38,940 bases of DNA, taken from an uncultured Verrucomicrobiota bacterium (lineage in GTDB: Bacteria > Verrucomicrobiota > Verrucomicrobiia > Limisphaerales > UBA9464). The translations under genes and the position numbers were made by a program. The notes under the pieces are model-generated. The model was not told the origin of the DNA, did no database searches, and was given only the letters and a program-made list of their open reading frames with translations. Each line of letters begins with the position of its first letter. Position 1 is the first letter of the stretch. Where the stretch lies: the NCBI GenBank assembly GCA_903939515.1, contig CAJAHH010000056.1, forward strand, positions 1-38,940, given 5' to 3'. Below, piece by piece: positions 8,826-38,939 of the stretch.

Positions 8826-8972
8826 GTTCTTCCAGGGTCCCAAACTCGCATCTGAGAAGCTGACGTTGGCGATGTTAGCCGTCTCCGACGAAGGCACACT
8901 CTCCAGGACATGGCGCAAGGTTCGGTTGGAAACCTAGAGCTATTCGGCCTCCCACGCGAAACGATCAAATGT

Positions 8973-11663: not shown

Positions 11664-11701
11664 ACCGAACCAAGCTTGTTTCTTTCTGCCTGAAAATTCC
11701 C

Positions 11702-12565: not shown

Positions 12566-12568
12566 GTG

Positions 12569-20634: not shown

Positions 20635-23400
20635 TCACCAGGTCATCTCCACGCGGAGTTCCGATGCATTCGGTTGGAGGGCGACGCGGAGTTCGTCGCC
20701 GACGAGGGTGGCCTGGGCACCGGGGCCCACCTGAATGAGTAATCCACCGTCGACCTTGAAACCGTTGCCGGCCGGTTGGATGCCACCCTTGGCCAGTCGC
20801 AGCCAGAGGGGCTGGGTCGGTGTGCCCTGAAAGCGGAAGGTCCGCACCAGCGTCATGTCGACGCTACCGGGCTTGGCCAGAGGGGTCTCCTCTATGGTCA
20901 GGCCGAGGACGCGATAGTGGAAGGTGGGTTGCTGGCGCGCATCGAGCCGGTAGCCCAAGAATTGGCTGCTGGTGTCGATCGCGGTTGGCCAGGGGGCCGT
21001 GGGCGAAGACAGGGTCGCGAAGGCCGGCCCCTCGGGCAGGCGGATGCGGTGGTCACCCAGCGGCGGTTCGTAGCCCGTGCCGCGGTCGGTGCTATGGCGG
21101 GCCATGTCGATGAAGGGACCTTGCCAGAGCAGGGCCATGCGGAGGTTCTGGGCATCGAAGGCCAGGTTGGCCCGCTCAGGATAACCCACGCCGATGGCCC
21201 GGGCTCCGCCGCCTTCGATGAAGTTGCGATAAATCACGGCCTCGTCATCGACCACGATCTCCTTCTTGCCGCGGATCAGCCCGGCCGGGATCTCAGCCTT
21301 GGCCCCGTCGGCCAGGTAGGCGTAGATGGCCCGCAGTTGGCCCGTGGTGTCGCCATTGAGAATCTTGGTGTTCACCGCCTTGCCCTCGGGCCAGAAGGTC
21401 GGCATGCGGGTGCCGGGGCGCAGGGCCGCCGGGTTGGGCAGGTAGCGTTGCAGCCATTCCCATTCGAGGCGCTCACCCATCTTGTCGAGGGCCAAGGCCG
21501 GAATACCCATGGATCCATGCGTGGTAAAGGTGTGACAGGCCACGCAGCCCAGCCCATCGCGGCCTATGAGTTTCCAGCCGACCTTAGCATCCTGAGAAGT
21601 GGTGACCGGCGCCGGAGTCGCTGTGGTCGGGGCGTCGAGGCGTTTCAATTGGGCCGCCAGCGTGTGGACCTTCGGGCCGAAGACCGGCATGCGGGTGGCC
21701 ATGTACGGACGCACCTTGGTGCCCTGGGTCAGGATTTGCTCGAGGGCTGCCGCCTTGAGCTTGCTGCCGACTCCGGTGAGGTGCGGCGGGATGCGGCCTT
21801 CGTCACCGAGGTCGGCCTCGCCGATGACGGTGAACCATTCCGAACGTCCTGAGGCGGTCGGGCCACCCACCTCATTGCGAGAGTGACAGGCCAGGCAGTT
21901 GAATTGGCTCAAGGTGAGGTCGACTTGGGCTGAAGCGCCGTTGGCTGCCTTCTGGGCCTCGGCCGGATTGCGTAGGGTCTTGCGGAGGCTCATCCGGTCG
22001 GCGGTTGAGAGGTCGAAGCGCGGAGCCTTGGCGGGAGGAATGTCAGACAAACAGCCTTCTTGGGTTCGCAGGGCCAATTGGACCATGGGCTTAGACTTGC
22101 GAGCCTGAACCAACCCCGTGGCGTCGGTCACTGCATGGCACGCGGCACAATTGAGCGCGGCGAATTGCTCCCGACCCGCGGCGACCTTGGTGGGATCGAG
22201 GGAGAACTCTTCCCAGTCGAGCGGACGCACTACCTGGCCGCCATGCTTGAGTCGATCGCCCGGGATGAGGCCGCGTTTCTCACCCGGAGGAGCCCATTGC
22301 ACTTGGAACTCGGTTTCGCCGCCGCCTTGGAAATACACCACTTCCAGTTCATGGAGGCCGGGCTTGAGGTTTAGGGTGCCGTTCTTTTCGGCGGCCGGAT
22401 GAACCCCGTCATTATTCAGGAGCGCTCGGCCATCGATGGACAGTTGGGAGCCGTCGTCCGATCGGATCCAGAAGCGGTACTTGCCGTCGGTTGGGATGTC
22501 GATGAACCCCGAGAAGCGGACACCCCAGTTGTTGTTGGGGTGAGGAAGGCTCAAGTCGAGGGCGGTGGAGACCCCTGTGGATTTCGGGGTCATGGCCAGC
22601 AACTGACTGATGGAACCGGCCGCTCCCTCAAAGAATTCGTACTGAAGCCCATCGACCATGGCCGGTGCCTTGGAAGGTGCGTTGTTGGCGGAGACCTGAT
22701 CCCGCAACAAGTAGAGGGCGATGGCTCCGGCCTCTGAGGGCGACAAGTTCATCGAGGGCATCCGACCCGAGGGACGGTGCACCAGCGGATCGCGCAGCAG
22801 TCGGGCCAGTTCCGAAGCGGGATATTTTCGGGCGAGGTCTCCCAGCGGGATGGACTGTTCTTGGATTTCTTTGAAGGCTTGGTCGGTCACTCCTTCGGGG
22901 CGTGTCTCGGGCGCGTGGCAGGCGACACATCCGACCGTGTGGTACAGGGCACGCCCTTGGTCGATCCGGGCTGGGTCTGAGCGGAGGCCGGAAGGTTCGT
23001 TGGTCTTGCGCAGGGAGACCAGGTAGTGGGTGAGCACGTCGACGGTCTTGGTCTTCTGGGCTTCAGTCATCCCGTGCAGCACGTCGGGCATGGCGGACCC
23101 CGGTTTGGCTTGGTGGGGACTGGAGAGCCAGCGCCGCATCCAGGTCGTCGAGGTTTTCAGCGGATCCGCCCCAAGCACAGGAGCCCCTTTGGGAGCGGCC
23201 CAGTCGGGGAGGGCGGCCGAGGCCTGCAGACCCTTGTCGCTGTGGCAGGCGGCGCATTGCAATTCGCTGACTAGAAGTGTGCCGCGGTCCACCGAGGGAG
23301 GGTGGACTCCCGTCTGGATCCCGGCCGAGGCTTGGAATACGGCGGAGAATAAGACCGCCGCGACGGTAAACGGGGCCGAGACTCGGTGCAGGAAACTCAT
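20635..23400 (-). CDS. Five-heme c-type cytochrome with PA14 domain
   Basis: A 921-residue secreted protein with a signal peptide ([16 protein letters not shown], residues 11-26). CxxCH heme sites occur at 49-53, 157-161, 417-421, 501-505 and 618-622, with candidate Met ligands such as GSAMPDV, GRMPSM, TRMPVF and TRMPTF. A PA14 domain (about 250-385, [24 protein letters not shown]... in part) sits between hemes two and three; PA14 domains usually bind carbohydrate. The C-terminal 200 residues are heme-free and rich in beta-strands. Fusions of cytochrome, PA14 and dehydrogenase modules are a hallmark of Planctomycetota and Verrucomicrobiota. It probably takes electrons from the neighbouring propeller protein during polysaccharide or sugar oxidation. 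Confidence 0.88.
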
Positions 23401-24488: not shown

Positions 24489-25874
24489 ATGACACCGAGT
24501 GTCTTGAAGAGAACCTTCTTCGTTATTTTTGGAGCAGGCACACTTCTGGTTGGGGCGTGCTTTGTTCCAGCCTGTGCTCAGCAAACCGACCTGACGAAGG
24601 CGGATGCTTTGGATGTCCGCCGCGACGCCGTCGTGGAAGCCATCGAGCGCGTGATGCCGAGCGTGGTCAACGTCGAGGGTTCGGCCGATGTCGACCCAAA
24701 CAGCGTCGACGACCGCCTGATGGCTGAATTTTTCGGATGGCGGTTGCAGCAAGTGCAGGAGGCGGTGGTCAGCCGCGGGTCCGGTGTCGTCATCGACGAG
24801 GAAGGTTACGTGCTCACCAATGTTCACGTGGTCGATGGCGTGAAACGAGTGTTCGTGAAGTTCAACGACGGATCCGATCCCATCGAGGCCGAACGGGTGG
24901 CGCTCAACGCCGCCAAAGATGTGGCGTTGCTGAGGCTCAAATCTCCGGGTCGAAAGTTCCCGGCCGTCAAATTTGCTAAGGACGACGACCTCTTGCTGGG
25001 CGAGACGGTCATCGCCTTGGGCAATCCCTTCGGATACGCGGGTTCTGTGAGTCGGGGCATCTTGAGTTCCCGCGCCCGCCGCGGTCCCAATGAGGACCGT
25101 TCGCGCGGAGAACTCGATACCTTGGACTGGATCCAGACCGACGCGGCCATTAACCCGGGTAATTCTGGCGGCCCGCTCATCAATTTGCGGGGCGACCTCA
25201 TCGGCATCAACGTGGCGACATTGCGTCCGCAAATGGGCGCCCAGGGCATTGGTTTTGCCATCCCCATTAAACGGGTTAACCAAGCCTTGGCCGAGGTGCT
25301 CAGCGGCGAGTCGGTGGGGCGTTTTTGGTTTGGAGCCCGTCTCAAGGCGGCAACGCGGCCCCTGACCATCCAAGCGGTGCAACCCGGTAGTCCGGCCGAA
25401 AAAGCGGGGCTCAAGGCGGGCGACGTGATTGCTGCGATTCAGGGAGATCCGCCCAGCGGTATTATCGAATTCAATCGGGCTCTGGTGAAGGCTGGAGATT
25501 CAAAGGACATCCCTCTGAGTGTTCGACGGGGAGGCAGCCTCAAAGAGTTGCGACTGCGCCTCGTCGACGAGGCGGACTTTTTCAACAACGAGTACTTGTC
25601 CGCACGGGCCGGTTTCAAAGTGGCTCCGGTGCGGGGAGGAGGGTTTGTCATCCAAAGTGTCGATGCCAACGGCCCGGCGGCCGCAGTGGGGCTCAAGCGA
25701 GGGCACCTGATCCGCGGGTTGGATCGCACCGAATTCCCAGATGTCGTGGCCTTGGCTCGCTATTTGTTTAGTCGGCCCAAGGGCGAATCCGTGGAGTTGG
25801 GGATTTTGTTTGATCAGCGCACGGCCTTGGGAGTGGTTCGTCAGGCGGGAATCGTGGCGCTCAAATTGCGGTAG
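24489..25874 (+). CDS. HtrA/Deg-family serine protease with two PDZ domains
   Basis: A 461-residue envelope protease with an N-terminal export signal (RTFFVIFGAGTLLVGAC). The signal could end at a lipobox-like VGAC, making it a lipoprotein, or at ACAQQ for ordinary cleavage. The trypsin-like domain has the full triad: His113 (TNVHVVDG), Asp144 (AAKDVALLRL) and Ser226 (INPGNSGGPL). Two PDZ domains follow (about 275-365 and 385-455). HtrA proteins degrade or refold damaged periplasmic proteins. The ATG at 24489 was chosen for a normal-length signal peptide; 24477 and 24426 are possible alternatives. The gene stands alone, 142 bases after yebC. Confidence 0.92.
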   Translation: MTPSVLKRTFFVIFGAGTLLVGACFVPACAQQTDLTKADALDVRRDAVVEAIERVMPSVVNVEGSADVDPNSVDDRLMAEFFGWRLQQVQEAVVSRGSGVVIDEEGYVLTNVHVVDGVKRVFVKFNDGSDPIEAERVALNAAKDVALLRLKSPGRKFPAVKFAKDDDLLLGETVIALGNPFGYAGSVSRGILSSRARRGPNEDRSRGELDTLDWIQTDAAINPGNSGGPLINLRGDLIGINVATLRPQMGAQGIGFAIPIKRVNQALAEVLSGESVGRFWFGARLKAATRPLTIQAVQPGSPAEKAGLKAGDVIAAIQGDPPSGIIEFNRALVKAGDSKDIPLSVRRGGSLKELRLRLVDEADFFNNEYLSARAGFKVAPVRGGGFVIQSVDANGPAAAVGLKRGHLIRGLDRTEFPDVVALARYLFSRPKGESVELGILFDQRTALGVVRQAGIVALKLR

Positions 25875-25961
25875 AGCCCCGGACAAACCGACCCGTTTCT
25901 CAGCCCTCCCCGCCGATTTGCGTGCCTTCTCGAGAGGATCGGAGAGGTGGTCAGGCTAAAT

Positions 25962-26012
25962 GAGGCTACTTGAGGCCTGAAAAAAATTGCCAATGTGGCC
26001 TCAAGAGGCTAC
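25962..26012 (+). promoter_or_regulatory. Inverted/direct repeat before PIN module 4
   Basis: CTTGAGGCC (25969-25977) and GGCCTCAAG (25997-26005) form a perfect 9-bp inverted repeat around 19 AT-rich bases. GAGGCTAC occurs on both flanks (25962-25969 and 26005-26012) as a direct repeat. The element ends 9 bases before the antitoxin ATG, a plausible site for toxin-antitoxin autoregulation. Confidence 0.45.
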
Positions 26013-26021
26013 ATCTGAGTG

Positions 26022-26360
26022 ATGAGACACTCCACCACCACCCCGGTGCGTTATCCTCTAGGGACCTCAGAGGGCGCCAAAACGGGCGAGGTCCTTCGAG
26101 AGGTGGCTGGGTTGCAGCCGCAGTCCACATCGATCAACGTCCGTGCTGCCAAGGATCAGTTGTCGAGCCTTCTCGAGCAGGCCTCGCGGGGCGCTGAAAT
26201 TGTCATTACCAGCGACGGTCACCCCAAGGCCCGACTGGTGCCTGTGAGGTCCCACGGCAAACCCTATTCGGTGGACTGGGAGTGGTTGAGGGGGCAGCCG
26301 CTGGTTTGCGGCCCTTCGGCGGAGGTGCTCATCCGTGTTGAGCGCGATGGACGGGATTGA
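26022..26360 (+). CDS. Phd/YefM-family antitoxin, module 4
   Basis: A 112-residue antitoxin. Residues 36-76 (STSINVRAAKDQLSSLLEQ, then GAEIVITSDGHPKARLVPV) form the Phd/YefM DNA-binding fold. It has about 35 extra residues before that fold, so an internal start is possible, but no ATG occurs closer to it. The tail (SVDWEWLRGQ) is probably toxin-binding. GTG 26019 and ATG 26022 are adjacent starts; the ATG was used. A PIN gene follows on the same strand. Confidence 0.84.
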   Translation: MRHSTTTPVRYPLGTSEGAKTGEVLREVAGLQPQSTSINVRAAKDQLSSLLEQASRGAEIVITSDGHPKARLVPVRSHGKPYSVDWEWLRGQPLVCGPSAEVLIRVERDGRD

Positions 26361-26418
26361 TCCAAAAATTCCTCAGCCTTCCCAATCTCAAAGTCCCCCA
26401 AACCGCGAAGTCTTCCGC

Positions 26419-26865
26419 ATGTATCTCGACTCCTGCATTCTGGTGAAACTTCTGATCCGCGAACCGGACAGCGAGTTCTACGCCCGCCTAGTTGAGGGAC
26501 ACCCCGTTTCGTCCTCCATGTTGGCCTTCACCGAGGTCTGGTCTGCCATGCTGGCTCGGGAGCGAGCCCAACTCATCGGAACCCGACTGCGTCTCGAAGC
26601 CTGGCAACGGTTCGACGATCAGATGCGAACGCAAATGATCGATTTGTCGCCCATTTCCGAGGCGATCATTCGGCGAGCCCATTGGATTTTGGGTCGCGTG
26701 CATCCGAAGGTGCCCTTGCGATCCCTCGACGCCCTTCACTTGGCGACAGCCGATCAGCTCCAAGACTGGCCTTTGGTGACCAGTGACCAACGGCTCCGCG
26801 AGGCGGCCCTCCACCTAGGGTATCCCCTCAACGACCTGCCGGGTCCGATTCTACCCGCATACTGA
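26419..26865 (+). CDS. PIN-domain ribonuclease toxin (VapC-like), module 4
   Basis: A 148-residue PIN protein. The predicted acids are Asp4 (MYLDSCILVKLLI), Glu39 (AFTEVWSAML), Asp104 (RSLDALHLATA) and Asp123 (LVTSDQRLREAA), so the site is complete. RxLDALHLA and TxDxRL are common VapC signatures. The ATG at 26419 places the first strand at the N-terminus; an in-frame ATG at 26347 would overlap the antitoxin by 14 bases and add 24 unrelated residues. With the start used, 58 bases separate it from the antitoxin, more than in the other modules, so the upstream start deserves checking. Confidence 0.86.
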   Translation: MYLDSCILVKLLIREPDSEFYARLVEGHPVSSSMLAFTEVWSAMLARERAQLIGTRLRLEAWQRFDDQMRTQMIDLSPISEAIIRRAHWILGRVHPKVPLRSLDALHLATADQLQDWPLVTSDQRLREAALHLGYPLNDLPGPILPAY

Positions 26866-26984
26866 CCCCTCAACGTTCCTTGGCCATGACAGGGTTTTGC
26901 CATCTACCTGCACACCGTTGAATCTCCGGGGTTTTCTGTTCCTGCGGTGAGGCTTCCCGAGTACTTTAAGAGACTCCAAGGCGG

Positions 26985-27950
26985 ATGTCTGACTCCACTC
27001 CCATGATCGAGGTCCGGGACCTCACGAAGCGCTACCCCGGACGCACCGCGGTGGACGGGATCTCCTTCACCGTGGGTCGAGGGGAGGTTGTCGGATTCCT
27101 GGGCCCGAACGGGGCAGGCAAATCGACCACGATGCGCATCCTGTCGTCGTTCATGCCGGCGACCAGTGGCACGGTTCGCATCGCTGGCTTCGATGTGTTT
27201 CATCAGCCCGACGAAGTGCGTCGCCGCATCGGCTACATGCCGGAGAACAACCCCCTGCATATCGACATGCGGGTGCGAGACTACCTCAAGTTTCGAGCGC
27301 GACTCAAGGGATTGGGCATCGGCCGCAGCCGAGACCGGGTGGATCGGGTGATTGAGCAATGCGGGCTCAAAGACGTCGAAAAGCGAATCATCGGGCAGCT
27401 TTCTAAGGGCTACCGCCAACGCGTGGGGCTGGCCGATGCCCTGGTCCATGAGCCCGACCTGATCATTCTCGATGAGCCCACCATCGGTCTCGATCCTCAT
27501 CAGTTGCGATCCGTGCGAGCCTTAATTAAGGAATTGGGGCGTCAGCATACGGTGCTGCTGTCTACGCACATCCTGACCGAGGTGGAGATGACCTGCTCCC
27601 GGGTATTGATCCTCAATCAGGGGCGCATTCTGGCGGCCGATCGGGTGGAAGACTTGGAGAGTCGCTTCAGCCAAGATGGCCGGGTGGTGGCCGAGATTGA
27701 CGCGACGCCCGAGGCCATCCGCGAGGCGTTCCGCGATTTGCCCGAGGTGGCTTCGATCGAAATCCAGGCCGCCGCGGGCAGTTTTCAACGGGTGGCCCTC
27801 ACTCCTAGGGCAGGGGAAGACCTCAGGACTTTGGTGTTCGAACAGGTACGCCAGCAGGAGTGGAATTTGCGGGAATTGACCCGGCCTCGGTTGTCGCTGG
27901 AAGACATCTTCATTCAACTCACGCAGAAGAACAAAAGAGGGGGCCTTTAA
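26985..27950 (+). CDS. ABC transporter ATPase, GldA-like
   Basis: A 321-residue ATP-binding subunit. Walker A is GPNGAGKST (40-48), the signature is LSKGYRQR (139-146), Walker B is LIILDEPTIGLDP (159-171) and the switch His is in STHIL (about 193). The last 100 residues form the extension seen in ATPases that pair with ABC-2 permeases. GYMPENNPLHIDMRV is typical of the GldA/CcmA-like group. In Bacteroidetes GldA works with GldF and GldG in gliding motility and secretion; in PVC bacteria the same trio occurs without the rest of the gliding machinery, role unknown. It opens an apparent operon of five or six genes; the permease starts 2 bases after its stop. Confidence 0.93.
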   Translation: MSDSTPMIEVRDLTKRYPGRTAVDGISFTVGRGEVVGFLGPNGAGKSTTMRILSSFMPATSGTVRIAGFDVFHQPDEVRRRIGYMPENNPLHIDMRVRDYLKFRARLKGLGIGRSRDRVDRVIEQCGLKDVEKRIIGQLSKGYRQRVGLADALVHEPDLIILDEPTIGLDPHQLRSVRALIKELGRQHTVLLSTHILTEVEMTCSRVLILNQGRILAADRVEDLESRFSQDGRVVAEIDATPEAIREAFRDLPEVASIEIQAAAGSFQRVALTPRAGEDLRTLVFEQVRQQEWNLRELTRPRLSLEDIFIQLTQKNKRGGL

Positions 27951-27951
27951 T

Positions 27952-28707
27952 ATGAATGTCTTCCTGACCCTCGTGCGGCGTGAATTGGGAGCCGCCTTCA
28001 ACTCGTTGACTGGCTATGTGGTCGTGGCCATCACCTTGCTCCTAGCCGGATTCGGCCTGATGGACATCGTGGAGCGACTCAATTCAGACCGTACGCCGTC
28101 GCCGATCCCTGAGATTTTCTTTGCCGATGGCATCGTGTTCTGGGTGACCCTGATCCTCACCACACCGGTGATCACCATGCGCACGTTTGCCGCCGAAAAG
28201 GCGCTCGGGACTTATGAGGCATTGATGACCACGCCCGTCGGTGAATGGCAGGTGGTTTTGGCTAAGTTCACTGGTTCCTTGGCGTTTTATCTTTTGAGTT
28301 GGGCTCCCTTGATCGGGGTTCTGGTCGTCCTGAGGCAGGTGACTCATCAACCTCAGTTGTTGGACCCTTGGGCCATGTGCGGGGTGCTCACGGGCATCGC
28401 CTGCATCGGGTCGACCTTCCTGTCGATTGGGGTGTTTGCGTCATCGTTGACTCGTAGTCAGATCATCGCAGCCATGACCTCGCTGCTCATCGGCATCGGA
28501 CTGTGGACGATGAGTTTGCGCTTTTCGCAGACCGACACCACCGGCGACCGGTTGGGACGCCTCATGGATCACTTGTCGGTCACCCACCACATGCAGGACT
28601 TTGCTCGAGGCGTTATTGACGGTCGGGCCTTGGTCTTTCACCTGAGTGTGACGTTTTTCTTCCTGTTCCTCACTCAGCGCGTGATCGAAATGCGGAGGTG
28701 GAAATGA
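27952..28707 (+). CDS. ABC-2 type permease, GldF-like
   Basis: A 251-residue membrane protein with about six hydrophobic segments. MRTFAAEKALGTYEALMTTP (about 81-100) matches the conserved cytoplasmic-loop motif of GldF and of NosY-like permeases (MR..AEE...GT.E.L...P). It starts 2 bases after the ATPase stop, and its own stop overlaps the next start in ATGA, so the products are made together. A GAGG stretch near 27936 can serve as ribosome binding site. The substrate is not predictable; GldF-like permeases may work as mechanotransmitters rather than classical transporters. Confidence 0.9.
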   Translation: MNVFLTLVRRELGAAFNSLTGYVVVAITLLLAGFGLMDIVERLNSDRTPSPIPEIFFADGIVFWVTLILTTPVITMRTFAAEKALGTYEALMTTPVGEWQVVLAKFTGSLAFYLLSWAPLIGVLVVLRQVTHQPQLLDPWAMCGVLTGIACIGSTFLSIGVFASSLTRSQIIAAMTSLLIGIGLWTMSLRFSQTDTTGDRLGRLMDHLSVTHHMQDFARGVIDGRALVFHLSVTFFFLFLTQRVIEMRRWK

Positions 28708-30224
28708 GCGACCCGACGACAGAGCTTTCCAGCGTGCTGCCTCCCAGCTACGAGCCCGGCCGTCGCTGGAGTGCTGGTTTCAATTCGTTCATCGGGGTGG
28801 TGGCGTTGCTGGCGATTTTGGTGATGGTCAATTACCTGGCCGCGACACGCCTGCAGTGGCGCTATGACTGGGTCTCTTCCCAGCGTCCCCAATTGTCGCC
28901 GCTCACTGTGGCCACCTTGAGCGGACTCACCAACGAGGTGAAGGCCATCGTCTTGTTCGACCCGTCTTCCGACCTGTACCGGCATGTGAAGGGCTTGCTC
29001 CGGGAATATTCTCTGCAGTCGCCGCGGATCTCGGTCCAATTGGTTGATTACGTACGGGATGCGACCCTAGCGACGGCCATCAAGACCCGCTACGGCCTCG
29101 GGGCCAACACGGGCGATTTGGTCATTTTTGATGCGGGTGGCGGACGGTTCCGCACCGTCGATGATTCCGAGATGTCCACCTACGATGCCGACGTGAAGGG
29201 CATGATGGCCGGCAAGAATCAGGAGATCCGCCGTGTGGCCTTCCGAGGTGAGGCTCTGTTCACGGCTGCCTTGGCTGGACTGTCCGAGGCTTCTGGGACC
29301 CGTGCGTATTTCCTCCGTGGACATGGAGAAAACGACCCGTCCTCCGACGACGAGCGCAATGGATACTCCCGATGGGTCCGGCTGTTGGCCGAGAAGAACG
29401 TCGAATCGAGGGTCTTTACCAACTTGCTGGCCGGCGTGCCCGAAGGTTGCAGTTTGTTGGTGGTCGCAGGACCGGTGCAACCGCTGCTCACTTCAGAAGC
29501 GGCCGCCATCTCGAAGTACCTAGACCGAGGTGGCCGAGTTCTGGTGACCCTTTCGCTGGAGACTCTCCGCCGTCAGGGTCCTCTCGAGGGTTTGCTGGAG
29601 GAGTGGGGCGTGTTCTTGCCCTCGCAATTGGCCAATGATGAAAAAGCCTCGGTGCGCGGGTTTGATGTTGTCGCCAACTCTTACGGATCCCATCCAGTCA
29701 CCTCACCCCTGACCCGGGCCGGGGCGAAGGTTCACTTTCAGGCGCCGCGCGTCGTCGTGCCGATTCCGTCCAATCGCCTGCCTGCCGATGCACCGAAGAC
29801 CACGGCGCTAGTTTTGACCGGTCCGGAGGGTCGAACTCTCTCCGATTTTGACGGACGAGAATTTTCCTATGTTGAGGGCAAAGACCGTCGTGGTGAGATC
29901 CCCTTGGCCGTTGCTTCTGAAAAGGGTGGGGTCAGCGGGTTGAGTGCGGGCCGCGGTACCGCACGGTTGATCGTTGTTGGTGATTCGGCGCTTTGGGCCA
30001 ATGGGCCGCTCCAGAGTTTGGGGAATCGCGATTTTGCCGCCCTCTGCGTCAACTGGTTGCTGGATCGTCAGCAGTCGATGGCCATTGGGCCTCGGACTAT
30101 TTCGGAATACCGGTTGAACCTCACGGCGCCCCAGTTGCGACTTCTGAATGGAGTCTTGCTCGGAGCGCTGCCCGGTGGCGTGTTAATCTTGGGCTTCATG
30201 GTCTGGGCACGGAGGCGGGGTTGA
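28704..30224 (+). CDS. GldG-like ABC-associated membrane protein
   Basis: A 506-residue protein with a membrane segment near the N-terminus (about 28-46, FNSFIGVVALLAILVMVNYL in part), a large extracytoplasmic domain, and one membrane segment at the extreme C-terminus (LLGALPGGVLILGFMVW). The domain includes LSPLTVATLSGL near residue 65 and AYFLRGHGENDPS around 200, both typical of the GldG/DUF4350-like group of ABC-type uncharacterised proteins. The ATG at 28704 overlaps the permease stop by four bases and follows GGAGGTGG, a good ribosome binding site; the frame also has an ATG two codons earlier. It pairs with the GldA/GldF-like genes upstream. Confidence 0.88.
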   Translation: MSDPTTELSSVLPPSYEPGRRWSAGFNSFIGVVALLAILVMVNYLAATRLQWRYDWVSSQRPQLSPLTVATLSGLTNEVKAIVLFDPSSDLYRHVKGLLREYSLQSPRISVQLVDYVRDATLATAIKTRYGLGANTGDLVIFDAGGGRFRTVDDSEMSTYDADVKGMMAGKNQEIRRVAFRGEALFTAALAGLSEASGTRAYFLRGHGENDPSSDDERNGYSRWVRLLAEKNVESRVFTNLLAGVPEGCSLLVVAGPVQPLLTSEAAAISKYLDRGGRVLVTLSLETLRRQGPLEGLLEEWGVFLPSQLANDEKASVRGFDVVANSYGSHPVTSPLTRAGAKVHFQAPRVVVPIPSNRLPADAPKTTALVLTGPEGRTLSDFDGREFSYVEGKDRRGEIPLAVASEKGGVSGLSAGRGTARLIVVGDSALWANGPLQSLGNRDFAALCVNWLLDRQQSMAIGPRTISEYRLNLTAPQLRLLNGVLLGALPGGVLILGFMVWARRRG

Positions 30225-30237
30225 TGCGATTTCATCG

Positions 30238-32043
30238 ATGAACCGAAGAACCACATGGGTGTTGGTGTTGCTGGCCGTCCTGCTCGGGGGATGGCTTGCC
30301 ATGACCGAACGCCGCGATGAGGTCCGGGTGGCTGGCGCCACCGGATCGGTGCGCTTTCGCCGATTAGACCCGCGTGAGGTGATCTCGGTCGAAATCCTCC
30401 GATCCAATGTGGCCATCCGCTTGGAGCGGACCAACTCGGGGTGGTTCCTGAGGTCTCCGATCCATTACCCGGTCCAATCGACGAGCGTGGAACGTTTGTT
30501 GGAGATGATCGGTAATCTCGCACCCCGTTCGCACCAGTCGAGCGCCGAGGTGACCGCGCAGCGCGGGGCCTTGGCGGCCTTTGGGCTCGAACGTCCCGAC
30601 GTGCTCACCATTCGCACCCGCGAGGGCATGAACATTCTTCGCCTCGGCGGTCGAACGCCGCTGGGGAGTCAGTTCTATTTCCAGCAGGTCGGCCAAGACG
30701 GGGTGTTCACGGCCGAGGCCGGCCTTTTGGAGGCCTTGCCAGCTTCGCCCGAAGACTGGCGCGACCGACGCCTCTTTGATGCCGATTCGCTGCCCTTCGA
30801 TCGTGTAGAAATTCTTGGGGAGACCGAGTTTGAGGCGGCCATCACGACCAATGGGACGTGGAGTCTGATTCGTCCGTTGGTGGCCCGGGCCAATGATGAT
30901 CAAATTCGCCGACTCCTGACCGATGCGGCGGATTCCCGGGTGAATGCCTTCGTGAGCGATACGCTCACCGTTTCGGCCGAAGAGTATGGATTAACCAAGC
31001 CCACCGCCCAAATGGTCTTGAAGCGAGGCACCAACGAGCTCTTGAGACTCCAGTTTGGCCGGGCCTCGACGAATGCACCGGGAGAAATCCTCGTACGCCG
31101 CTCCGACTTCGGGAACATCGTCCGGATTACTAATTCCATTTTGGAATCACTCAAACGGCCGCTGGCCACCTACCGGGATCGCCGGTTGATGCCGCAGATC
31201 GCCGGATTGGAGCGACTCGAGGTGCGGGCGGGCAGTGAACCCTTCACTTTAGAGAAGCAGGGCACCAACTGGTGGGTCATTTCTCCGCGCCGCTTTTTGG
31301 CCGATGGTCCTTGGGTTCGGGAGACCTTCCAGCGGTTCATGCGGCTGCGAATCGAGGATTTCTTGGACGATCTGGGGACCAACCCGGGCCGTTACGGCTT
31401 GGACCAGCCCGCCCGCGAGTACTCCTTCTACCTCGGTAAATCCAATGGCTCCCCGGCATTGCTGACCCGTCTCACTATGGGGACCCCCTTGGGTGAGGGG
31501 CGGCGGCTCTCGATGCGCCGGTCCGATGAACTTGGGATTTACGGCATTGCCGCAGGGGATTTGCAAATCCTGCCCGTGTCGGCTCCACAATTCCGAGACT
31601 GGAATCTCAATCCCAGCAACATTGTCCAAATTGAGATTCGTCAACAGGGGCGCACGCGGATGCTCCGGCGGAATTCCCTGGGCCGATGGGATGGCGTGAT
31701 CGCCGCGCAGGGGTTGCTGCCAGATCCCGCCATCGACGAAGGGCTCTACCGCATCGGCCAGGCCCCAATCGGTCGCTTTCCAGTTCCCAACGACGTTGCA
31801 TTGAAACAGTTCGCCTTCGACCAACTCGACCACGCGGTGACATTGACCCAGAAAGAAGGCGGCAATTTTCGTTCGCTGCATCTCCGGTTCGGCGGCCGCA
31901 ATGCCATCAACCAGTTTGTCTGGGCCGCCTTCGACTCCGATGAGCCCGCCATCTTGACGCAGTTTCCGCTGAGCCTCTATCAGGAGTACATCGGGCCTTG
32001 GTTCAGTGCCCCGCCGGCCACCTCTAACGAAACGAAGCCGTGA
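30238..32043 (+). CDS. DUF4340 domain protein of the Gld-like operon
   Basis: A 601-residue protein anchored by one N-terminal segment (TWVLVLLAVLLGGWLAM, residues 5-21). The rest is extracytoplasmic with repeated beta-rich units. Characteristic DUF4340 features are ISVEILRSNVAIRLERTNSGW near 49-69, LRLGGRTPLGSQFYF near 134, and the later YRDRRLMPQIAGLERLEV and TNWWVISP. The unit appears at least twice. Proteins of this family almost always follow GldG-like genes; their function is unknown. It starts 13 bases after the GldG-like gene and its stop overlaps the GTG of the next gene by four bases. Confidence 0.88.
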   Translation: MNRRTTWVLVLLAVLLGGWLAMTERRDEVRVAGATGSVRFRRLDPREVISVEILRSNVAIRLERTNSGWFLRSPIHYPVQSTSVERLLEMIGNLAPRSHQSSAEVTAQRGALAAFGLERPDVLTIRTREGMNILRLGGRTPLGSQFYFQQVGQDGVFTAEAGLLEALPASPEDWRDRRLFDADSLPFDRVEILGETEFEAAITTNGTWSLIRPLVARANDDQIRRLLTDAADSRVNAFVSDTLTVSAEEYGLTKPTAQMVLKRGTNELLRLQFGRASTNAPGEILVRRSDFGNIVRITNSILESLKRPLATYRDRRLMPQIAGLERLEVRAGSEPFTLEKQGTNWWVISPRRFLADGPWVRETFQRFMRLRIEDFLDDLGTNPGRYGLDQPAREYSFYLGKSNGSPALLTRLTMGTPLGEGRRLSMRRSDELGIYGIAAGDLQILPVSAPQFRDWNLNPSNIVQIEIRQQGRTRMLRRNSLGRWDGVIAAQGLLPDPAIDEGLYRIGQAPIGRFPVPNDVALKQFAFDQLDHAVTLTQKEGGNFRSLHLRFGGRNAINQFVWAAFDSDEPAILTQFPLSLYQEYIGPWFSAPPATSNETKP

Positions 32044-35000
32044 ACCCTGCTGCCGGCCCGGTTACTGAGAATCGTCCGACTCGACGGTCGATTTGGTCTC
32101 GTGGAGCCTGGCCACGACGCCTCTTTCGGATGGGGCGACGCAGCGCCTATTTGGTTTTGGCCGTGATCGTCGGATTGGGAGCCTACCTGAACCAAGTCGG
32201 CATTCCCGAGAGCCTCAAGAACCGCCTGCTCGAGACCCTTCGACAACGGGGAGTGGCGATGGAGTTTGAGCGCATCCGTTTCCGGGCAACCCGGGGCATC
32301 GTGGCCGAACAGGTGACCTTGGGCCGTTTGGGCGACCTCGGCGGGGAGCAGTTTTCGGCGCAGGAAGTTCAGTTAGCGTTGGATTGGGGCCAGGTTCTGG
32401 CCCTCAAGCCCGAGGTGAGGGGACTCAAGATCCGCGGAGGGTCGGTCTCCATCCCACTGGTCGAGAGCAACCGTGTGGCATCCCGTTTTAACCTCCATGG
32501 GGTCGAGGCGCGCATTCGGTTTGAAGGTGCCGAGGAATGGGTCGTCGAAGATTTGCGTGCGACCACGGAGGTGGGATCCTTTCGGGCTTCTGGAATCTTG
32601 AAACACCCGACGGCCTTGCGATCGGTTTCTGACCCAGCACCCGCCCAAGCCTCCCCAGCGTGGCGTTCTACGTTGCTTCGGATCCAACGCACTCTGGAAG
32701 AAATTCGCTTCCAGAAACCGGCTGAGGTTCGACTCCAATTTCAGACCGACTTGGCCTTACCCGAGGCCTCCTCGGCCGAGTTCACACTTTCGGCCGGACA
32801 GGTCACCTGGAATGAACGCTCGTTTCAGCGCCTGAAGTTGGAGGCTCAGATGAGTCCGCTCACCGAGGCTCCGGGGCAATTGGCCGTGCACGTTCAATGG
32901 GAGGTGGATGGGGTGTCGGCGCGCGAAGGATCTGTCCGGGGACTGCGGGGCCAACTGAAGTCTACCCAACCGATCGACGCCGTGCTTCCCGCCAAGGTCG
33001 ATTGGAACCTCAGTGCGGAGGGGGTCCAGACGCCTCAGTTCTTGTTGGGCAGGGCTCAGGTCGAAGGTAAATCCGAGCGCTTGGCTTCCAATGCCATCCC
33101 GGTTCGTCCCTGGGATCCCAGAAACGAAACTTTGGTTGCGAAGGGGCTCACCCCTCAGTTCCAGTCCTCCCTGAAAATCCACCTGAACGAATTCAAGACC
33201 CTTGCCCCCGAGGTCCGCCTGAATGAGGCAACGGTTCAGGTGATCCTGGGACACGATTTGTCGGGATGGCATGAGGCGCAGTTGGAAGTCCGGGCCCCGG
33301 GTTTTCAGAGCCCTGGGTTGGACTGCGGTCCTCTGGAACTCTCGTTGACGGGCCACCCTCAAGGCCCCGGTCCTGGGCCTGAGGATGCTTCATTTTGGCG
33401 TTGGGTCCGCCCGTTCGTGCTGGCCGGAAGCTTGGAGGCCCGCACCGTGAATCACCCGCTTCTGCGATTGGACCGTTTTAAGACCCAGTTGCGTTTCGCT
33501 TCGACCCGCGCCCAGTTGGAGGACACGCAAATTGACCTCTTGGGCGGCACCGTGGCGGGTAACATCGAGTGCGATTTGGATACGCGACGCTTGAGTGTGC
33601 AGGCCACTTCGTCGGCCCATCCCTCCGGAGTCATCCCCGTGCTAACGCCGGCCGGTCAGCGATGGTTGGGGCAATTTTTCTGGCCCACCAATCAAGCCCC
33701 TCGGATCGCCGCCCAACTGGGGTTGGTGTTGCCGCCCTGGACCAACAGCAATCCCGACTGGCGTGGCACCGTGTTACCCACCGTCACCATCGCCGGATCG
33801 GCCACGGGAGAATCCTTCAGTTTCCGAGGCATCACGGGGGATTCTGCCAAGGGGGCTTTCACCTACACCAACCGCGTATGGCGGATTCCGGGCATGACGG
33901 TGGTTCGGCCCGAGGGACGGGTTGTCTTCGACTACGAGGGCCACGAGGTGACTCAAGACTACCGCTTCCGACTGACTTCCGGGGTGGATCCCAAGATCGT
34001 GCAACCGCTCATCGCTGAGCCGGGAGCCCAGCGGGTGTTCAATGACTTAAAGTTCGGCCAACCGCCTCAAATTAAGGGGGAGATTCGTGGGCGCTGGTTC
34101 TCGCCAGAATTGACGACGGTGCAGGTGGAAATCGCGGCGACCAATGTCACTTATCGGGGTGAGCATTTGGATTCAGCGCGGGCAAAACTGGGCTATACAA
34201 ACCGGTTTTTGTCGGTCGGCGAGGCCCGCGGTCGAGATGGCGAACAGTGGGTTACCGTCGATGGGTTTGCCTTCGACGCGGCGGTCGGACTCATTTCCTT
34301 CACCAATGCTGTCAGTGTTTTTGATCCGTGGCGGCTCACTCGATTGATTGGCCCCATCACGCACCGGACGATGAGCCCTTACCATTTCATAGAACCCCCG
34401 CTGGTTCATGTGAATGGTGTGATCGGCATTCGCGGAGACATGTCGCGTAACGATATTCGTTTCGACGCCGAATCCGAGGGGTCCTTCGAGTGGTGGAAAT
34501 TTCGAACCAAGGGGGTTTCTGCCAGCGTTCTGTCTATTGGCAGCCAATTGTATGTGACTAATATCCAGGCCGGCTTTTATGGAGGGCGTCTTCGGGGAAA
34601 TCTCCAATTCGAACTCGGTAAGGATGAGAACAATCGCCTGCGCATGGACACCGAGTTGAGGGACGTCGAATTGGGTGCGTTGGTAGCCGGCGTGTCGGGG
34701 CGGACCAACCGTCTGGAAGGGCGCCTGTCGGGAACCTTCCGCGTCGACGAAGGTCTCACCTCAGAACCGGCCTCTTGGAAGGGCGGGGGACAGGCCACCT
34801 TACGCAATGGCTTCCTGTGGGGATTCCCGGTTTTCGGCGTGTTTTCCTCCATCCTCGACGGCATGTCCTCCGGATTGGGTCAGGCTCGATTCACGGAGGG
34901 AACGGCCACGTATTCGCTGGCTCAGGGGGCCGTCCACACTCGCGATCTCCAAATGAAGTCGCCCTCGATGTCGCTCGGCTATTCCGGATCGGTAGCCTTT

Positions 35001-35297
35001 GACTACAAAGTCGACATGCTGGTGCAAGGTTCGATGTTTCGCCGGGTTCCTTTGTTCGGTCCCGTGGCTTCCATTGCCTTGTCGCCGCTCGAGAAGCTCT
35101 TCGAGTACCGACTGACCGGAACCCTGGATGAGCCCGTGACCGGTCCGGCCCATGTGCCCACCTTGTTGCTCTTTCCCTTCAGACCCTTTGGAACTCTGAA
35201 GGATCTCTTGCCCGAGGAGCGTCGGGCGGTATCGGATCCGGCGGCCTCCCCGGTCTCCAAACAACCTAAAAATTCCCCCGCGGTTCCCAAACCGTAA
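32040..35297 (+). CDS. Large AsmA-like protein (AsmA-like C-terminal region)
   Basis: A 1085-residue protein with a basic N-terminus and one membrane segment (about 36-50, AYLVLAVIVGLGAYL), then over 1000 residues of beta-rich, repeating sequence. The C-terminal third (NDIRFDAESEGSFEWWKF, then LQMKSPSMSLGYSGSVAFDYKVD in part, FRRVPLFGPVASIALSPLEK and a final LTGTLDEPVTGP) fits the AsmA_2/TamB-like group, whose proteins form hydrophobic grooves that bridge the envelope and carry phospholipids. The start is GTG at 32040-32042, overlapping the previous stop; no ATG occurs earlier. Linkage to a Gld-like ABC system is the notable feature. The lipid-transport role is inferred from the family. Confidence 0.82.
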   Translation: MNPAAGPVTENRPTRRSIWSRGAWPRRLFRMGRRSAYLVLAVIVGLGAYLNQVGIPESLKNRLLETLRQRGVAMEFERIRFRATRGIVAEQVTLGRLGDLGGEQFSAQEVQLALDWGQVLALKPEVRGLKIRGGSVSIPLVESNRVASRFNLHGVEARIRFEGAEEWVVEDLRATTEVGSFRASGILKHPTALRSVSDPAPAQASPAWRSTLLRIQRTLEEIRFQKPAEVRLQFQTDLALPEASSAEFTLSAGQVTWNERSFQRLKLEAQMSPLTEAPGQLAVHVQWEVDGVSAREGSVRGLRGQLKSTQPIDAVLPAKVDWNLSAEGVQTPQFLLGRAQVEGKSERLASNAIPVRPWDPRNETLVAKGLTPQFQSSLKIHLNEFKTLAPEVRLNEATVQVILGHDLSGWHEAQLEVRAPGFQSPGLDCGPLELSLTGHPQGPGPGPEDASFWRWVRPFVLAGSLEARTVNHPLLRLDRFKTQLRFASTRAQLEDTQIDLLGGTVAGNIECDLDTRRLSVQATSSAHPSGVIPVLTPAGQRWLGQFFWPTNQAPRIAAQLGLVLPPWTNSNPDWRGTVLPTVTIAGSATGESFSFRGITGDSAKGAFTYTNRVWRIPGMTVVRPEGRVVFDYEGHEVTQDYRFRLTSGVDPKIVQPLIAEPGAQRVFNDLKFGQPPQIKGEIRGRWFSPELTTVQVEIAATNVTYRGEHLDSARAKLGYTNRFLSVGEARGRDGEQWVTVDGFAFDAAVGLISFTNAVSVFDPWRLTRLIGPITHRTMSPYHFIEPPLVHVNGVIGIRGDMSRNDIRFDAESEGSFEWWKFRTKGVSASVLSIGSQLYVTNIQAGFYGGRLRGNLQFELGKDENNRLRMDTELRDVELGALVAGVSGRTNRLEGRLSGTFRVDEGLTSEPASWKGGGQATLRNGFLWGFPVFGVFSSILDGMSSGLGQARFTEGTATYSLAQGAVHTRDLQMKSPSMSLGYSGSVAFDYKVDMLVQGSMFRRVPLFGPVASIALSPLEKLFEYRLTGTLDEPVTGPAHVPTLLLFPFRPFGTLKDLLPEERRAVSDPAASPVSKQPKNSPAVPKP

Positions 35298-35312
35298 TCG
35301 TGCCCTGTGCCC

Positions 35313-36038
35313 ATGAATCGATCAGAACTCATTTCGTTTCCTGACACCGAAACCCTCGTGCAACAAGTGGCTGGCCGCTGGTTGGATGCGGTCGATGCCG
35401 CCACCACGGCGAAAAAGCCCTTCCACGTGGCCTTGTCGGGCGGTCGGGTGGCCGGTCGATTTATGGCTGCAGCTCATTTGCTGGGGTCCGCTCGGGGCAC
35501 TTGTTGGGACACGGTGCACGTCCACTGGGGCGACGAGCGCTGCGTGCCTCCCGATCATGCCGACAGCAATTACAAGCTGGCTCAGACGGCCTTGCTAGAT
35601 CCGGCCGGAATCGCAATCGAACAACAGCATCGCCTGCGTGGTGAGTTGCCGCCGGACGAGGCGGCTCACTTGGCCGAAGTCGAGTTGCCCCGGGTGACCG
35701 GCACCGCTTCCGGCAGCGTGCCCGTTCTCGATTTGGTGTTTCTCGGCATGGGCGAAGATGGTCACGTGGCCTCGCTTTTTCCAGGAGCTCCGCAATCGGT
35801 GGTGACCTCCACACGATGGGTGATCCCGGTGATCGGACCGAAGCCACCACCGCAGCGATTGAGCCTGACCTTCCAGGTCCTGGCCGCGGCCAAGGAGGTG
35901 TGGGTGCTGGCCTCCGGCGTGGGCAAGGAAGAGGCCCTCCAGGAGTCGTTGCGCATCGGTGGCAGCACTCCGCTGGCGCATTTGCTTTCGCTAAGATCCC
36001 GAACGCGCATCATGACCGATCTGCCGCTGCCTGCGTGA
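35313..36038 (+). CDS. pgl: 6-phosphogluconolactonase
   Basis: A 241-residue enzyme of the SOL/DevB type of glucosamine-6-phosphate isomerase-like lactonases. Motifs are VALSGGRVAG (about 40-49; usually SGGS/T), VHWGDERCVPPDHADSNYKL (about 69-88), LVFLGMGEDGHVASLFPG (about 143-160) and LSLTFQVLAAAKEVWVLASG near the end. It hydrolyses 6-phosphogluconolactone in the pentose phosphate pathway. The ATG at 35313 was used; a GTG two codons earlier is possible. It begins 15 bases after the AsmA-like gene and may share its transcript, although zwf and gnd are not nearby. Confidence 0.93.
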   Translation: MNRSELISFPDTETLVQQVAGRWLDAVDAATTAKKPFHVALSGGRVAGRFMAAAHLLGSARGTCWDTVHVHWGDERCVPPDHADSNYKLAQTALLDPAGIAIEQQHRLRGELPPDEAAHLAEVELPRVTGTASGSVPVLDLVFLGMGEDGHVASLFPGAPQSVVTSTRWVIPVIGPKPPPQRLSLTFQVLAAAKEVWVLASGVGKEEALQESLRIGGSTPLAHLLSLRSRTRIMTDLPLPA

Positions 36039-36090
36039 AGCAGTCTTAGCGCCGCAACAATCGAGGTGATGTGAGTTCGTAGATGTTGCC

Positions 36091-38661
36091 ATGACCCCAC
36101 CCCATCCGGTCCGACAGTCTGGAATCCCACTCGGCGTGAGGCTGGCGGTGGGTGCGTCCGGTGCCTCGGCACTGGGCCTTCAGATGGTCTGGGCACGGAT
36201 GTTTGCACTCGGTCTTGGACAAGAGTTGCCTTCCACCCTGGGTGTGATCACCGCCTTCTTTGGCGGACTGGCGGTGGGTTCGCGTTGGGGCGGTCGTGCT
36301 CTGGATCGCCTGCCGTCTCCCGGGATTCGCTGTGCAGTGCTTGAGGCTCTGACGGCCTTCTGGGCGCTGGCGACGGTGCTGCTCGTGCCGTGGGTTGCGG
36401 AGTCCTCCTGGCACTGGCTTGGGCCTGCTCCCGGGGTTGGGCTTCACTGGGTCGTCAGCCTGCTGTTGCCGGGGGTGGTTTTGTTCCCGGCCACCGTGTG
36501 TCTAGGAGCCATGATGCCGGCGATGGAACGATTGATTTCGGGTTTCCGTGCCGATGGACTTCGGGTGGGGCCCTTGTATGCGGTGAACACCTTGGGTGCG
36601 GTCGTGGGGGTTCTGGGTTCGGTGCTCTGGGTGCAACCCCGTTGGGGGCTGACCGGATCGGTGATCGGCTTCGCCGGCCTTCAGTGCCTTTGTGCCGTGT
36701 TGTTCTGGTGGACGGGACGCGGTGTGCGGTCCGTGGAACCGGTTACTTCGACGGTGGAACCGGGTGGTGAACGTCTGAGCACCTCGCGCCTCCGGACCAC
36801 GTTGTGGCTGAGCGGCTTCTTGGGCATTGGCTTCGAGGTGTTGGCCACCCGGTTGTTGTCGCAAGTCCTCGAGAACACGGTCTTCACCTATGCAGTGATC
36901 CTCGCCGCCTATTTGCTGTTCACCGCCTTGGGTGGGGCCTTGCAAAATCGGTTCGCCTCGCAAGCCAACCGCGCGCTGGTGTGGTTGCTTCCGGGGGTGG
37001 CACTGAGTGTGGCGATCGCGGGATGGGTTTTGCGTCAGACGCCGCTGCTGGTTTCGATGCTGCGTGGCGGCACAGGACCTCAGGCCTTGCCGGCCATGGT
37101 CTCAGAATTCTGGGTGGCCAGCTCGGTGGTGGCTCTTCCAGCACTGGCCATGGGAATGCTCTTCGCCTCGCTGGCCACCGAAGCGGGCAGGCACCCGCGT
37201 TTCCTCGGACCCGCCCTTTCCTGGAATCTCCTGGGTTCGGCCCTGGCACCCGCGGTGATGGCGCTCGGTCTGATACCGGCCTTGGGGACCCGCTGGAGTT
37301 GGATCTTGCTGGGTCTGGGATACCTGACGCTCGTCCCGGGGTGGCGGCGACAGCGTTGGGTCTCGAAGGCGGGATTGGCTCTGGCTGCGGTGGCACTGAT
37401 GAGTCTGCCGAAAGACCTCCATTTGCAAACCCCTCCGCCTGGGGGTCGCATCGTTACCTTGCGCGAAGGGCCCTCGGACACGGTGACCACCGTGGTCCAA
37501 GCCGATGGGCACCGCATTCTCCGCATTAATCAGCGCTTCACCATGGGTGGCACCGCCTCTGCCTTGGCTGAGCGACGCCATGGTCATCTGCCGTTGCTCC
37601 TGCATCCGGAACCGCGCCGGGCGTTGTTCCTGGGAGTCGGCACAGGCATCTCGTTCTCCGCCCTCGATGCGCACCCAGGATTGGTGGCCGAGGGAATTGA
37701 ATTGGTGCCCGAAGTCGCCGAGGTGATGCCTGAATTCGCTTCGCACAATGCCCACAGTGATCGGCTTACCGTACGGGTTGCGGATGCCCGGCGATTCGTT
37801 CGAGCATCTACTCAACGCTACGATGTCGTGATCGCCGACTTGTTCCATCCGGCGCGGGATGGGGCGGCGGGCCTCTACACCCTCGAACACTTCCAGACGA
37901 TCCGGGATCGCTTGTCGGACGGCGGGCTCTTCTGCCAGTGGTTGCCGCTCTTTCAGCTCGATACTTACGGGCTGAGGATGATCACCGCCACGTTTCTTGA
38001 GGTGTTTCCCGACGCCTCGGCGCTGTTGCTGCGACTCAACGCCGACACGCCGGTGATCGGACTTATCGGGGGGCACGGACGTCATCTCTGGTCGCCGGAG
38101 GCCCTGGAGCGGCGTCTGAATCAGCCTCGCTTGCGAGAAGCCCTCAAGCCCATGGCCTTGGCCGAGGTCCTGCCGGTGATGGGCACCTGGTTCGCTGATG
38201 CCGAAACCCTCAAGACTTACTCCCAGAGCGTTGGAATCAACACCGACGATCACCCGATCCTGCTCTTTGACGCACCTCGGACGTTGGGTCCGGTTCCGCC
38301 GAAGGGACAGGCTCTGCTGTCGGAGCTTCTCGATCTCCAGCGTCCGTTTCCCGCGGACTTGTGTGCCGGGCGACCGGCCGACGAGTGCCGTCGGTTCCGT
38401 GCCTATCTCGAGGCACGTGACGCTCACCTCCGGGGCCTCATTGCTGAGTCTCAAGGACGCCCCGAGGAAGCAGAGCAGGGTTTCCTTCGGAGTGTTGTTT
38501 TGAGCGCTGATTTTACGCCCGGGTATGCCCAATTAATCACCCGTGCCTCGCTGCGCGCTCATTCCGATCCGCACGGAGCTCACCGCCTGTTAGATCTTCT
38601 GATTCAGGCCCGACCGGAGCGCACCGTCGCCCGCGATCTCAAAGCGCGTCTGGGACTCTGA
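36091..38661 (+). CDS. Fused MFS-like membrane protein / spermidine synthase domain
   Basis: An 856-residue fusion. Residues 1-435 hold about 11 hydrophobic segments with MFS-like loops (FFGGLAVGSRWGGRALDR near 49-66). A spermidine-synthase-type Rossmann domain follows (about 450-710): LFLGVGTGISFSALDAHPG is the S-adenosylmethionine-type loop, then IELVPEVAEVM, VADARRFV and VVIADLFHPARDGAAGLYT. The canonical catalytic DxxDP of polyamine synthases is absent here (ADLFHP), so polyamine synthesis is doubtful. The C-terminal 120 residues (AESQGRPEEAEQGFLRSVV...) are TPR-like helices. Such fusions are frequent in environmental bacteria; the function is not known. It lies 52 bases after pgl. Confidence 0.85.
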   Translation: MTPPHPVRQSGIPLGVRLAVGASGASALGLQMVWARMFALGLGQELPSTLGVITAFFGGLAVGSRWGGRALDRLPSPGIRCAVLEALTAFWALATVLLVPWVAESSWHWLGPAPGVGLHWVVSLLLPGVVLFPATVCLGAMMPAMERLISGFRADGLRVGPLYAVNTLGAVVGVLGSVLWVQPRWGLTGSVIGFAGLQCLCAVLFWWTGRGVRSVEPVTSTVEPGGERLSTSRLRTTLWLSGFLGIGFEVLATRLLSQVLENTVFTYAVILAAYLLFTALGGALQNRFASQANRALVWLLPGVALSVAIAGWVLRQTPLLVSMLRGGTGPQALPAMVSEFWVASSVVALPALAMGMLFASLATEAGRHPRFLGPALSWNLLGSALAPAVMALGLIPALGTRWSWILLGLGYLTLVPGWRRQRWVSKAGLALAAVALMSLPKDLHLQTPPPGGRIVTLREGPSDTVTTVVQADGHRILRINQRFTMGGTASALAERRHGHLPLLLHPEPRRALFLGVGTGISFSALDAHPGLVAEGIELVPEVAEVMPEFASHNAHSDRLTVRVADARRFVRASTQRYDVVIADLFHPARDGAAGLYTLEHFQTIRDRLSDGGLFCQWLPLFQLDTYGLRMITATFLEVFPDASALLLRLNADTPVIGLIGGHGRHLWSPEALERRLNQPRLREALKPMALAEVLPVMGTWFADAETLKTYSQSVGINTDDHPILLFDAPRTLGPVPPKGQALLSELLDLQRPFPADLCAGRPADECRRFRAYLEARDAHLRGLIAESQGRPEEAEQGFLRSVVLSADFTPGYAQLITRASLRAHSDPHGAHRLLDLLIQARPERTVARDLKARLGL

Positions 38662-38688
38662 CTTGAGAATTCATGGTTCGGCTGTCTC

Positions 38689-38939
38689 GGTGTAGCCCAG
38701 TGACTTCCGAGGTAGGGACCGATCTCCGAGAGGTCCGTCCCCGTGACACTGTCCGTCGAGCGAGCCTGCCATGGAAAGTGCCGTCCCTCTGTCTTATTCG
38801 TCGAAGCGGCCATTTGGGAGAAATCGCCCTACCTCGGAGATGCTCCGGCGAGGCTGAGTTTGCGGAAAGACCCTGGGGTGTAGCCCAGTGACTTCCGAGG
38901 TAGGGACCGATCTCCGAGCGGTCCGTCCCCGTGGCACTG
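38689..38939. repeat. 63-bp direct repeat pair at the right edge
   Basis: 38689-38751 and 38877-38939 are 63-bp direct repeats with two mismatches. Each begins GGTGTAGCCCAGTGAC and contains GAGGTAGGGACCGATCTCCG. Between them, 38816-38838 holds a related core in opposite orientation (GGGAGAAATCGCCCTACC, then TCGGA). The core is shared with the gap at 13262-13472. No gene was found from 38662 to the window end; the second copy may continue past the edge. Confidence 0.8.

Follow-up and report, generated by a model that had tools for sequence, protein, structure and literature searches.

Within the 38,940-nucleotide window analysed here, which is the whole of one contig (G000:C56; GenBank CAJAHH010000056.1) from the 4.7-Mb draft genome of an uncultured Verrucomicrobiota bacterium of the UBA9464 lineage, five consecutive genes at 26985–35297 encode an ATP-binding cassette (ABC) ATPase (A), an ABC-2 permease (P), a GldG-like component (G), a long DUF4340 protein (D) and an AsmA-like protein (M), all head to tail on the + strand in the list of open reading frames (ORFs). 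The principal finding of this study is that M directly follows D well beyond this genome and that the machine containing the long DUF4340 protein is rarely encoded without M. Our favoured explanation, to which we assign a probability of a little under one half (about 0.48), is that the genes form a lipid-traffic envelope operon, M being an AsmA-like conduit that receives help at the inner membrane from the ABC–GldG–DUF4340 machine. The protein families are known ones and it is their conserved pairing that we have not found described; no account of ABC–GldG–DUF4340 proteins paired with an AsmA-like protein was found in the open-licence literature, a scope outside which most subscription papers and preprints lie and in which DUF4340 is mentioned by two papers.

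The block was first noticed in a model's reading of the letters of the window (the original prediction), and as an observation it is confirmed, its five-gene order, tight spacing and membrane anchors being borne out by the ORFs, the family matches and the hydrophobic stretches, of which P has six, G one near either end, D and M one N-terminal stretch each and A none. The intergenic distances given there (+1, −4, +13 and −4) were reproduced for A–P, G–D and D–M, and the −4 between P and G requires that G start at an alternative in-frame ATG at 28704, giving an overlap of 4 with P; from the GTG start the distance is −10. The five genes stand as a unit, but the span originally proposed, 26985–36038, takes in a sixth gene, pgl, a metabolic neighbour, and the unit as counted here ends at 35297. 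As a candidate member pgl was rejected, since it follows M in 16/50 order-level and 0/60 phylum-level loci (described below). A literal gene fusion was likewise rejected: the description of the complex as ‘genetically fused’ to M does not hold for five separate ORFs. The interpretation placed on the block is, as a whole, partly supported.

Conservation of the D–M gene pair

The survey was confined to Verrucomicrobiota, with 288 genomes used for profile searches. M was matched in 57 of the 59 genomes of the first search, the window's genome included; the two without a match were G002 and G058, the latter giving a match at 5e-6 with a later profile. Gene order was then read in two sets of loci, the first of which also supplied the profiles: 50 order-level neighbourhoods taken from 50 of the 56 other M-positive genomes, and 60 phylum-level loci hand-picked across families from the best DUF4340 matches and hence biased to long DUF4340 proteins. 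M lay immediately after D on the same strand in 43/50 and 44/60 loci, respectively, with a median gap of −4 in both sets (ORF starts uncurated). The order-level misses include L073, which stops at a contig edge and whose other side (L153) shows D and then M, and the phylum-level misses include L146, a paralogous cluster of G343, a genome whose true operon (L164) has M.

Because the phylum-level set was drawn from strong DUF4340 matches, adjacency was recounted from profile-match coordinates, using E≤1e-20 for both M and long D. The matches listed gave places for 150 of the 171 D-positive and 147 of the 217 M-positive genomes, both being placed in 132, and among these matches M was directly 3′ of D in 89/132 genomes, the window's included. 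The order recurs across the phylum and the five-gene block is therefore more than chance; a local accident of one genome, which would have undone the original prediction, is rejected by the locus sets and by the coordinate count.

The same gene order might also arise if the genes were co-regulated and mechanically separate, M being a passive lipid conduit, the ABC–GldG–DUF4340 machine doing another envelope job and the operon matching expression to envelope growth. We regard this as possible but doubtful, as D and M stay linked in family after family and pgl is not retained beside them in the same way.

Co-occurrence and machine subtype

In the 288 genomes, with shared ancestry uncorrected and the lists transcribed manually, a long D was accompanied by M in 168/171 cases (the exceptions being G062, G182 and G242), M occurred without a long D in 49/217, and 68/288 had neither. 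When the general DUF4340 model, which includes paralogs, was used in place of the long-D profile, 207 genomes had both, 16 DUF4340 only, 10 M only and 55 neither. At E≤1e-20 the M count may take in other AsmA-like proteins where family matches are weak. The co-occurrence is one-sided: genomes with the long-DUF4340 machine seldom lack M, and M can occur without the machine. That just three of the 171 long-D genomes lack M speaks against mere co-regulation, and the one-sided pattern raises our confidence in an ABC-assisted conduit and lowers it in that rival. A strict dependence of M on the ABC machine is unsupported, given the 49 M genomes without long D, two 0.9-Mb genomes among them. In three genomes of family f54 (G153, G322 and G126) the long DUF4340 match spans one in-frame TGA, possibly a match running beyond the true stop.

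A second type of A–P–G–DUF4340 cluster exists in the phylum, with a short DUF4340 protein of 333–410 aa and a longer GldG-like protein of 621–645 aa. M was found beside none of nine such paralogous clusters, and among the nine is a cluster of the window's genome (L191, G000:C3:11500-26500, at 4593–9489; DUF4340 of 400 aa) with no adjacent AsmA-like gene. M therefore goes with one machine subtype, and the idea that it belongs to every ABC–GldG–DUF4340 cluster is rejected. These paralogs also lend something to the co-regulation account, being machines of the same families that have no M at their side.

Predicted structures of M and D

The model of M (74 sequences; mean predicted local distance difference test score, pLDDT, 84.1; predicted template modelling score 0.65) comprises an N-terminal helix, ~50 β strands and a low-confidence tail. 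The putative anchor has a hydrophobic stretch at residues 35–56 and a modelled helix at 24–52. Alternating strand hydropathy is the expectation for a sheet with one oily face, and alternation in M exceeded that of shuffled sequences, with z of 7.3 for the window protein and a family mean of 11.2; 49 strands were entered and 47 were long enough to score, short model strands being omitted. The model thus supports the view of M as a membrane-anchored, largely amphipathic, β-rich chain of the AsmA kind. Strands in a β sheet lie ~0.48 nm apart, and 49 of them would extend over ~23 nm, enough for the periplasm, a figure that is arithmetic from this general spacing and not a measurement.

The top Foldseek match for M was ApoB100 (E 1.3e-6, probability 1.00, template modelling (TM) scores 0.22 and 0.07), with further matches to LptDE (E 6.3e-4, probability 0.38) and, weakly, to a TamAB state (E 0.22). 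VIA-align returned mostly ApoB100 and outer-membrane barrels, with a top Z of 12.8 and a root mean square deviation of 11.8 over 286 residues, a result that indicates a curved β sheet and nothing more. The model of D (pLDDT 89.3) appears as a row of about four similar α/β blocks, counted by eye from its secondary structure, behind an N-terminal anchor. It gave no informative fold match (best Foldseek E 2.1e-3 with probability 0.20; best Z 2.6), so that no relative is identified or excluded, and profiles of M and D gave no informative sequence match among solved structures (best E 0.24 and 0.019).

Another explanation is that the operon serves to export or assemble some surface component, be it a lipoprotein, polysaccharide or protein. 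M would then act, much as GspN or TamB do, as a scaffold across the envelope or an assembly factor rather than a lipid bridge. The sole NCBIfam match of M is to GspN_Lepto, a type II secretion model (35.1 bits, under the cut-off of 50), and the TamAB state is among its weak fold matches. Where loci were read at the level of single genes the outer neighbours vary, no search having been aimed at secretion partners or cargo genes, and there is no direct counter-evidence; we nevertheless consider this explanation improbable.

Envelope setting

Matches to LptF/LptG were present in 16/16 genomes tested, and a lipopolysaccharide-type outer membrane is therefore likely in these bacteria, judging from their genes. 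One report (PMC3422733) points to LptD and BamA in arguing that the phylum has an outer membrane. Twelve of the 16 genomes, the window's among them, gave no TamB (PF04357) match at E≤0.001; four were positive. The window's genome encodes a second AsmA-like protein, of ~1240 aa, which passes the Pfam AsmA cut-off (L199, G000:C145:5000-24500, at 9195–12917), and an LptF/G-family gene lies ~5.5 kb from it on the opposite strand. A DUF4340 protein of Verrucomicrobium spinosum, of which the accessible text does not specify the long or short type, is described as containing an essential region (PMC12283558).

Proposed function

Our working model is that the N-terminal helix would fix M in the inner membrane, and its amphipathic β sheet would cross periplasmic space as an AsmA-type channel for lipids. 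A and P would form an ABC-2 machine of the inner membrane, with G and D as its periplasmic arms. Where M meets the inner membrane, this machine might extract, flip or load a lipid or some other amphiphile, or it might act as a gate for M; the resulting flow towards the outer membrane would be helped by ATP. We infer the contact between M and the machine, the lipid cargo, the direction of movement and the coupling to ATP. A narrower version, an ATP-assisted bridge of the AsmA family that is old in Verrucomicrobiota and in which the ABC-2 machine with its GldG-like and DUF4340 arms loads phospholipid by an Lpt-like logic, seems to us rather unlikely.

A number of observations weigh against an ABC-assisted conduit, and several of these would sit comfortably with co-regulation of separate functions. 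The first is the frequency with which the linkage is broken. In 43 of the 132 genomes M lay apart from D among the matches listed, although in one of them, G303, the linkage does exist and is interrupted by the end of a contig (L113), and in another, G173, both matches are near contig starts. Six of the 50 order-level loci (L056–L059, L081 and L082) have M without A–P–G–D upstream, D being present elsewhere in all six genomes, and in L151 and L152 A–P–G–D is followed by genes other than M. In L154 and L156 A–P–G–D ends at a contig start, and the separation is visible only from M's own loci. In a set of 20 loci centred on M, chosen non-randomly and leaning to genomes with uncertain or dubious linkage, eight were linked, 11 unlinked and one was cut by a contig start, so that 11 of the 19 readable loci were unlinked. 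The genes adjoining unlinked M in other families were varied.

The history of these breaks was addressed with a tree in which 92 of the 111 D proteins came from linked and 19 from unlinked loci, built by a quick method that left 34/108 inner branches weak (L041, L043, L084, L090, L146 and L153, and rows scoring <65 or of <400 aa, were excluded). The unlinked state was scattered over the tree, with a parsimony minimum of 11 changes, of which at least seven were forced by starred branches; shuffling gave a mean of 17.8, and 0/500 shuffles were as low. This pattern, which counts in favour of the proposed operon, fits an old one that may have been broken several times, the alternative being repeated joining.

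The second group of observations concerns genomes in which one partner is missing, to which the 49 M genomes without long D also belong. Two reduced genomes of 0.9 Mb each, G094 and G115, have M (2.9e-89 and 4.6e-91) and gave no GldG or DUF4340 match in profile searches, and G182 has a long D and gave no M match in a profile search. The unlinked M genomes, the missing long D and the two reduced genomes all favour M as a conduit in its own right under co-regulation. Their surroundings may be recorded here. In G094 and G115 (loci L171 and L172) M is just downstream of a gene for a ~750-aa protein, which we take from its sequence to be a PriA look-alike. The gene after M in L163 (7175–8566) and L164 (2635–3981) is presumably MiaB-like, and in G182 (L134, 8571–9959) such a gene follows D directly, as though M had dropped out of a D–M–miaB order.

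The remaining points concern M itself and its mode of action. The original prediction of an AsmA-type bridge agrees with the β-rich, anchored and largely amphipathic model; however, several strands show little alternation (e.g. within 86–175 and 688–746), and a continuous oily face is unsupported. In many families M is ~615–940 aa long; proteins of this size may fall short of crossing the periplasm, so that some members would not bridge the envelope by themselves. The four Foldseek matches of M at E≤0.001 include a type VI secretion system effector (E 9.2e-4, probability 0.10), and all TM-scores are low. Finally, the available part of PMC8593681, in which AsmA-like proteins are proposed as phospholipid bridges, prefers diffusion, not ATP, as the driver, as the co-regulation account would have it.

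Conduits of the AsmA kind may work passively or be driven by energy, and that source argues for diffusion. The phylum-wide tie of such a conduit to one ABC–GldG–DUF4340 machine names candidate inner-membrane partners, the operon makes ATP assistance of lipid bridges directly testable, and it hints at what the GldG-like and DUF4340 families, both still obscure, may do.

Gene identities and neighbouring genes

The features of the locus are given in Table 1.

Table 1. Genes of the five-gene block and the gene that follows it
Gene (product)	Coordinates	Strand	Length	Family evidence
A (ABC ATPase, GldA-like)	26985..27950	+	321 aa	PF00005 (ABC_tran), 113.1 bits
P (ABC-2 permease, GldF-like)	27952..28707	+	251 aa	PF12679, 34.8 bits (cut-off 27.2)
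G (GldG-like component)	28698..30224	+	508 aa from GTG	PF09822 (ABC_transp_aux), 57.5 bits (cut-off 34.7)
D (long DUF4340 protein)	30238..32043	+	601 aa	PF14238, 120 bits in 3 stretches (cut-off 25)
M (AsmA-like protein)	32040..35297	+	1085 aa	Partial Pfam AsmA/YhdP matches below cut-off
pgl (6-phosphogluconolactonase), outside unit	35307..36038	+		TIGR01198, 172.8 bits (cut-off 124.45)

The best NCBIfam model for A is GldA (323.2 bits, under the cut-off of 402.6), and P and G scored 136.3 and 19.1 bits against the GldF and GldG models (cut-offs 288.5 and 389.85). The motif LSKGYRQR, cited as a GldA signature in the accessible part of PMC9127263, is present in A. A search for the gliding motor protein GldL matched 0/14 genomes, but no control was matched either. 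The original prediction that the system is distinct from gliding is plausible, in that A, P and G miss all three Gld equivalog cut-offs, and gains nothing from GldL, for which the controls were silent too. These scores also bear on a further rival, in which a Gld-like ABC complex stabilises or positions envelope proteins, M included, and transports nothing to M. There is a precedent in Flavobacterium, where functional GldA is reportedly required for levels of GldJ and GldK (the available part of PMC9127263), and GldA is the model that A matches best; given the missed equivalog cut-offs, we consider this rival highly improbable.

For the window M, PF05170 (AsmA) scored 27.0 bits, just under the gathering cut-off of 29.8, and PF13116 (YhdP) 21.3 bits, under 46; in a genome search it was missing among the PF05170 matches of its own genome. 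The PF05170 cut-off was reached by M of G094 (30.2 bits with neighbours) and not by M of G004, G022, G085 or G100. At E≤0.05 there was no PF04357 (TamB) match of M and no LptF/LptG (PF03739) match of P. A promoter and terminator scan of 25800–38900 found one sigma-70-like site (shuffled mean 2.5) and nine terminator sites (shuffled mean 14.7).

Elsewhere in the window, an 856-aa protein encoded after pgl (36091–38661) matches the fused major facilitator superfamily/spermidine synthase model NF037959 (65.2 bits, cut-off 40), a gene for a pterin-binding enzyme of the dihydropteroate synthase type overlaps one for a CdaA-type diadenylate cyclase (16937–18606), and a 921-aa protein has cytochrome c and PA14 domains (20635–23400).

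Comparison with known systems

M resembles the AsmA-like proteins TamB, YhdP and YdbH in its N-terminal membrane helix, its long β-rich chain with largely alternating hydrophobic residues and its partial matches to the Pfam AsmA and YhdP models. It differs in that the window protein falls under both Pfam cut-offs and is encoded with an ABC–GldG–DUF4340 cluster; the partners reported in the available text for such proteins are TamA or BamA for TamB, the lipoprotein YnbE, and DedD for YhdP, with no ABC transporter among those named there. The ATPase, permease and GldG-like protein, together with the LSKGYRQR motif, recall GldA/GldF/GldG of gliding Bacteroidota, whereas the window locus misses the equivalog cut-offs and adds DUF4340 and M. 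The paralogous clusters with a short DUF4340 protein, which the window's genome also has, share the same four families in the same order and differ in the lengths of their GldG-like and DUF4340 proteins and in having no adjacent M (9/9 loci). LptB2FGC–LptA–LptD is alike by analogy only, as an ABC machine feeding a trans-periplasmic β conduit, and is unlike the window locus in that the permease has no LptF/G match and the LptF/G-family genes of this genome lie elsewhere.

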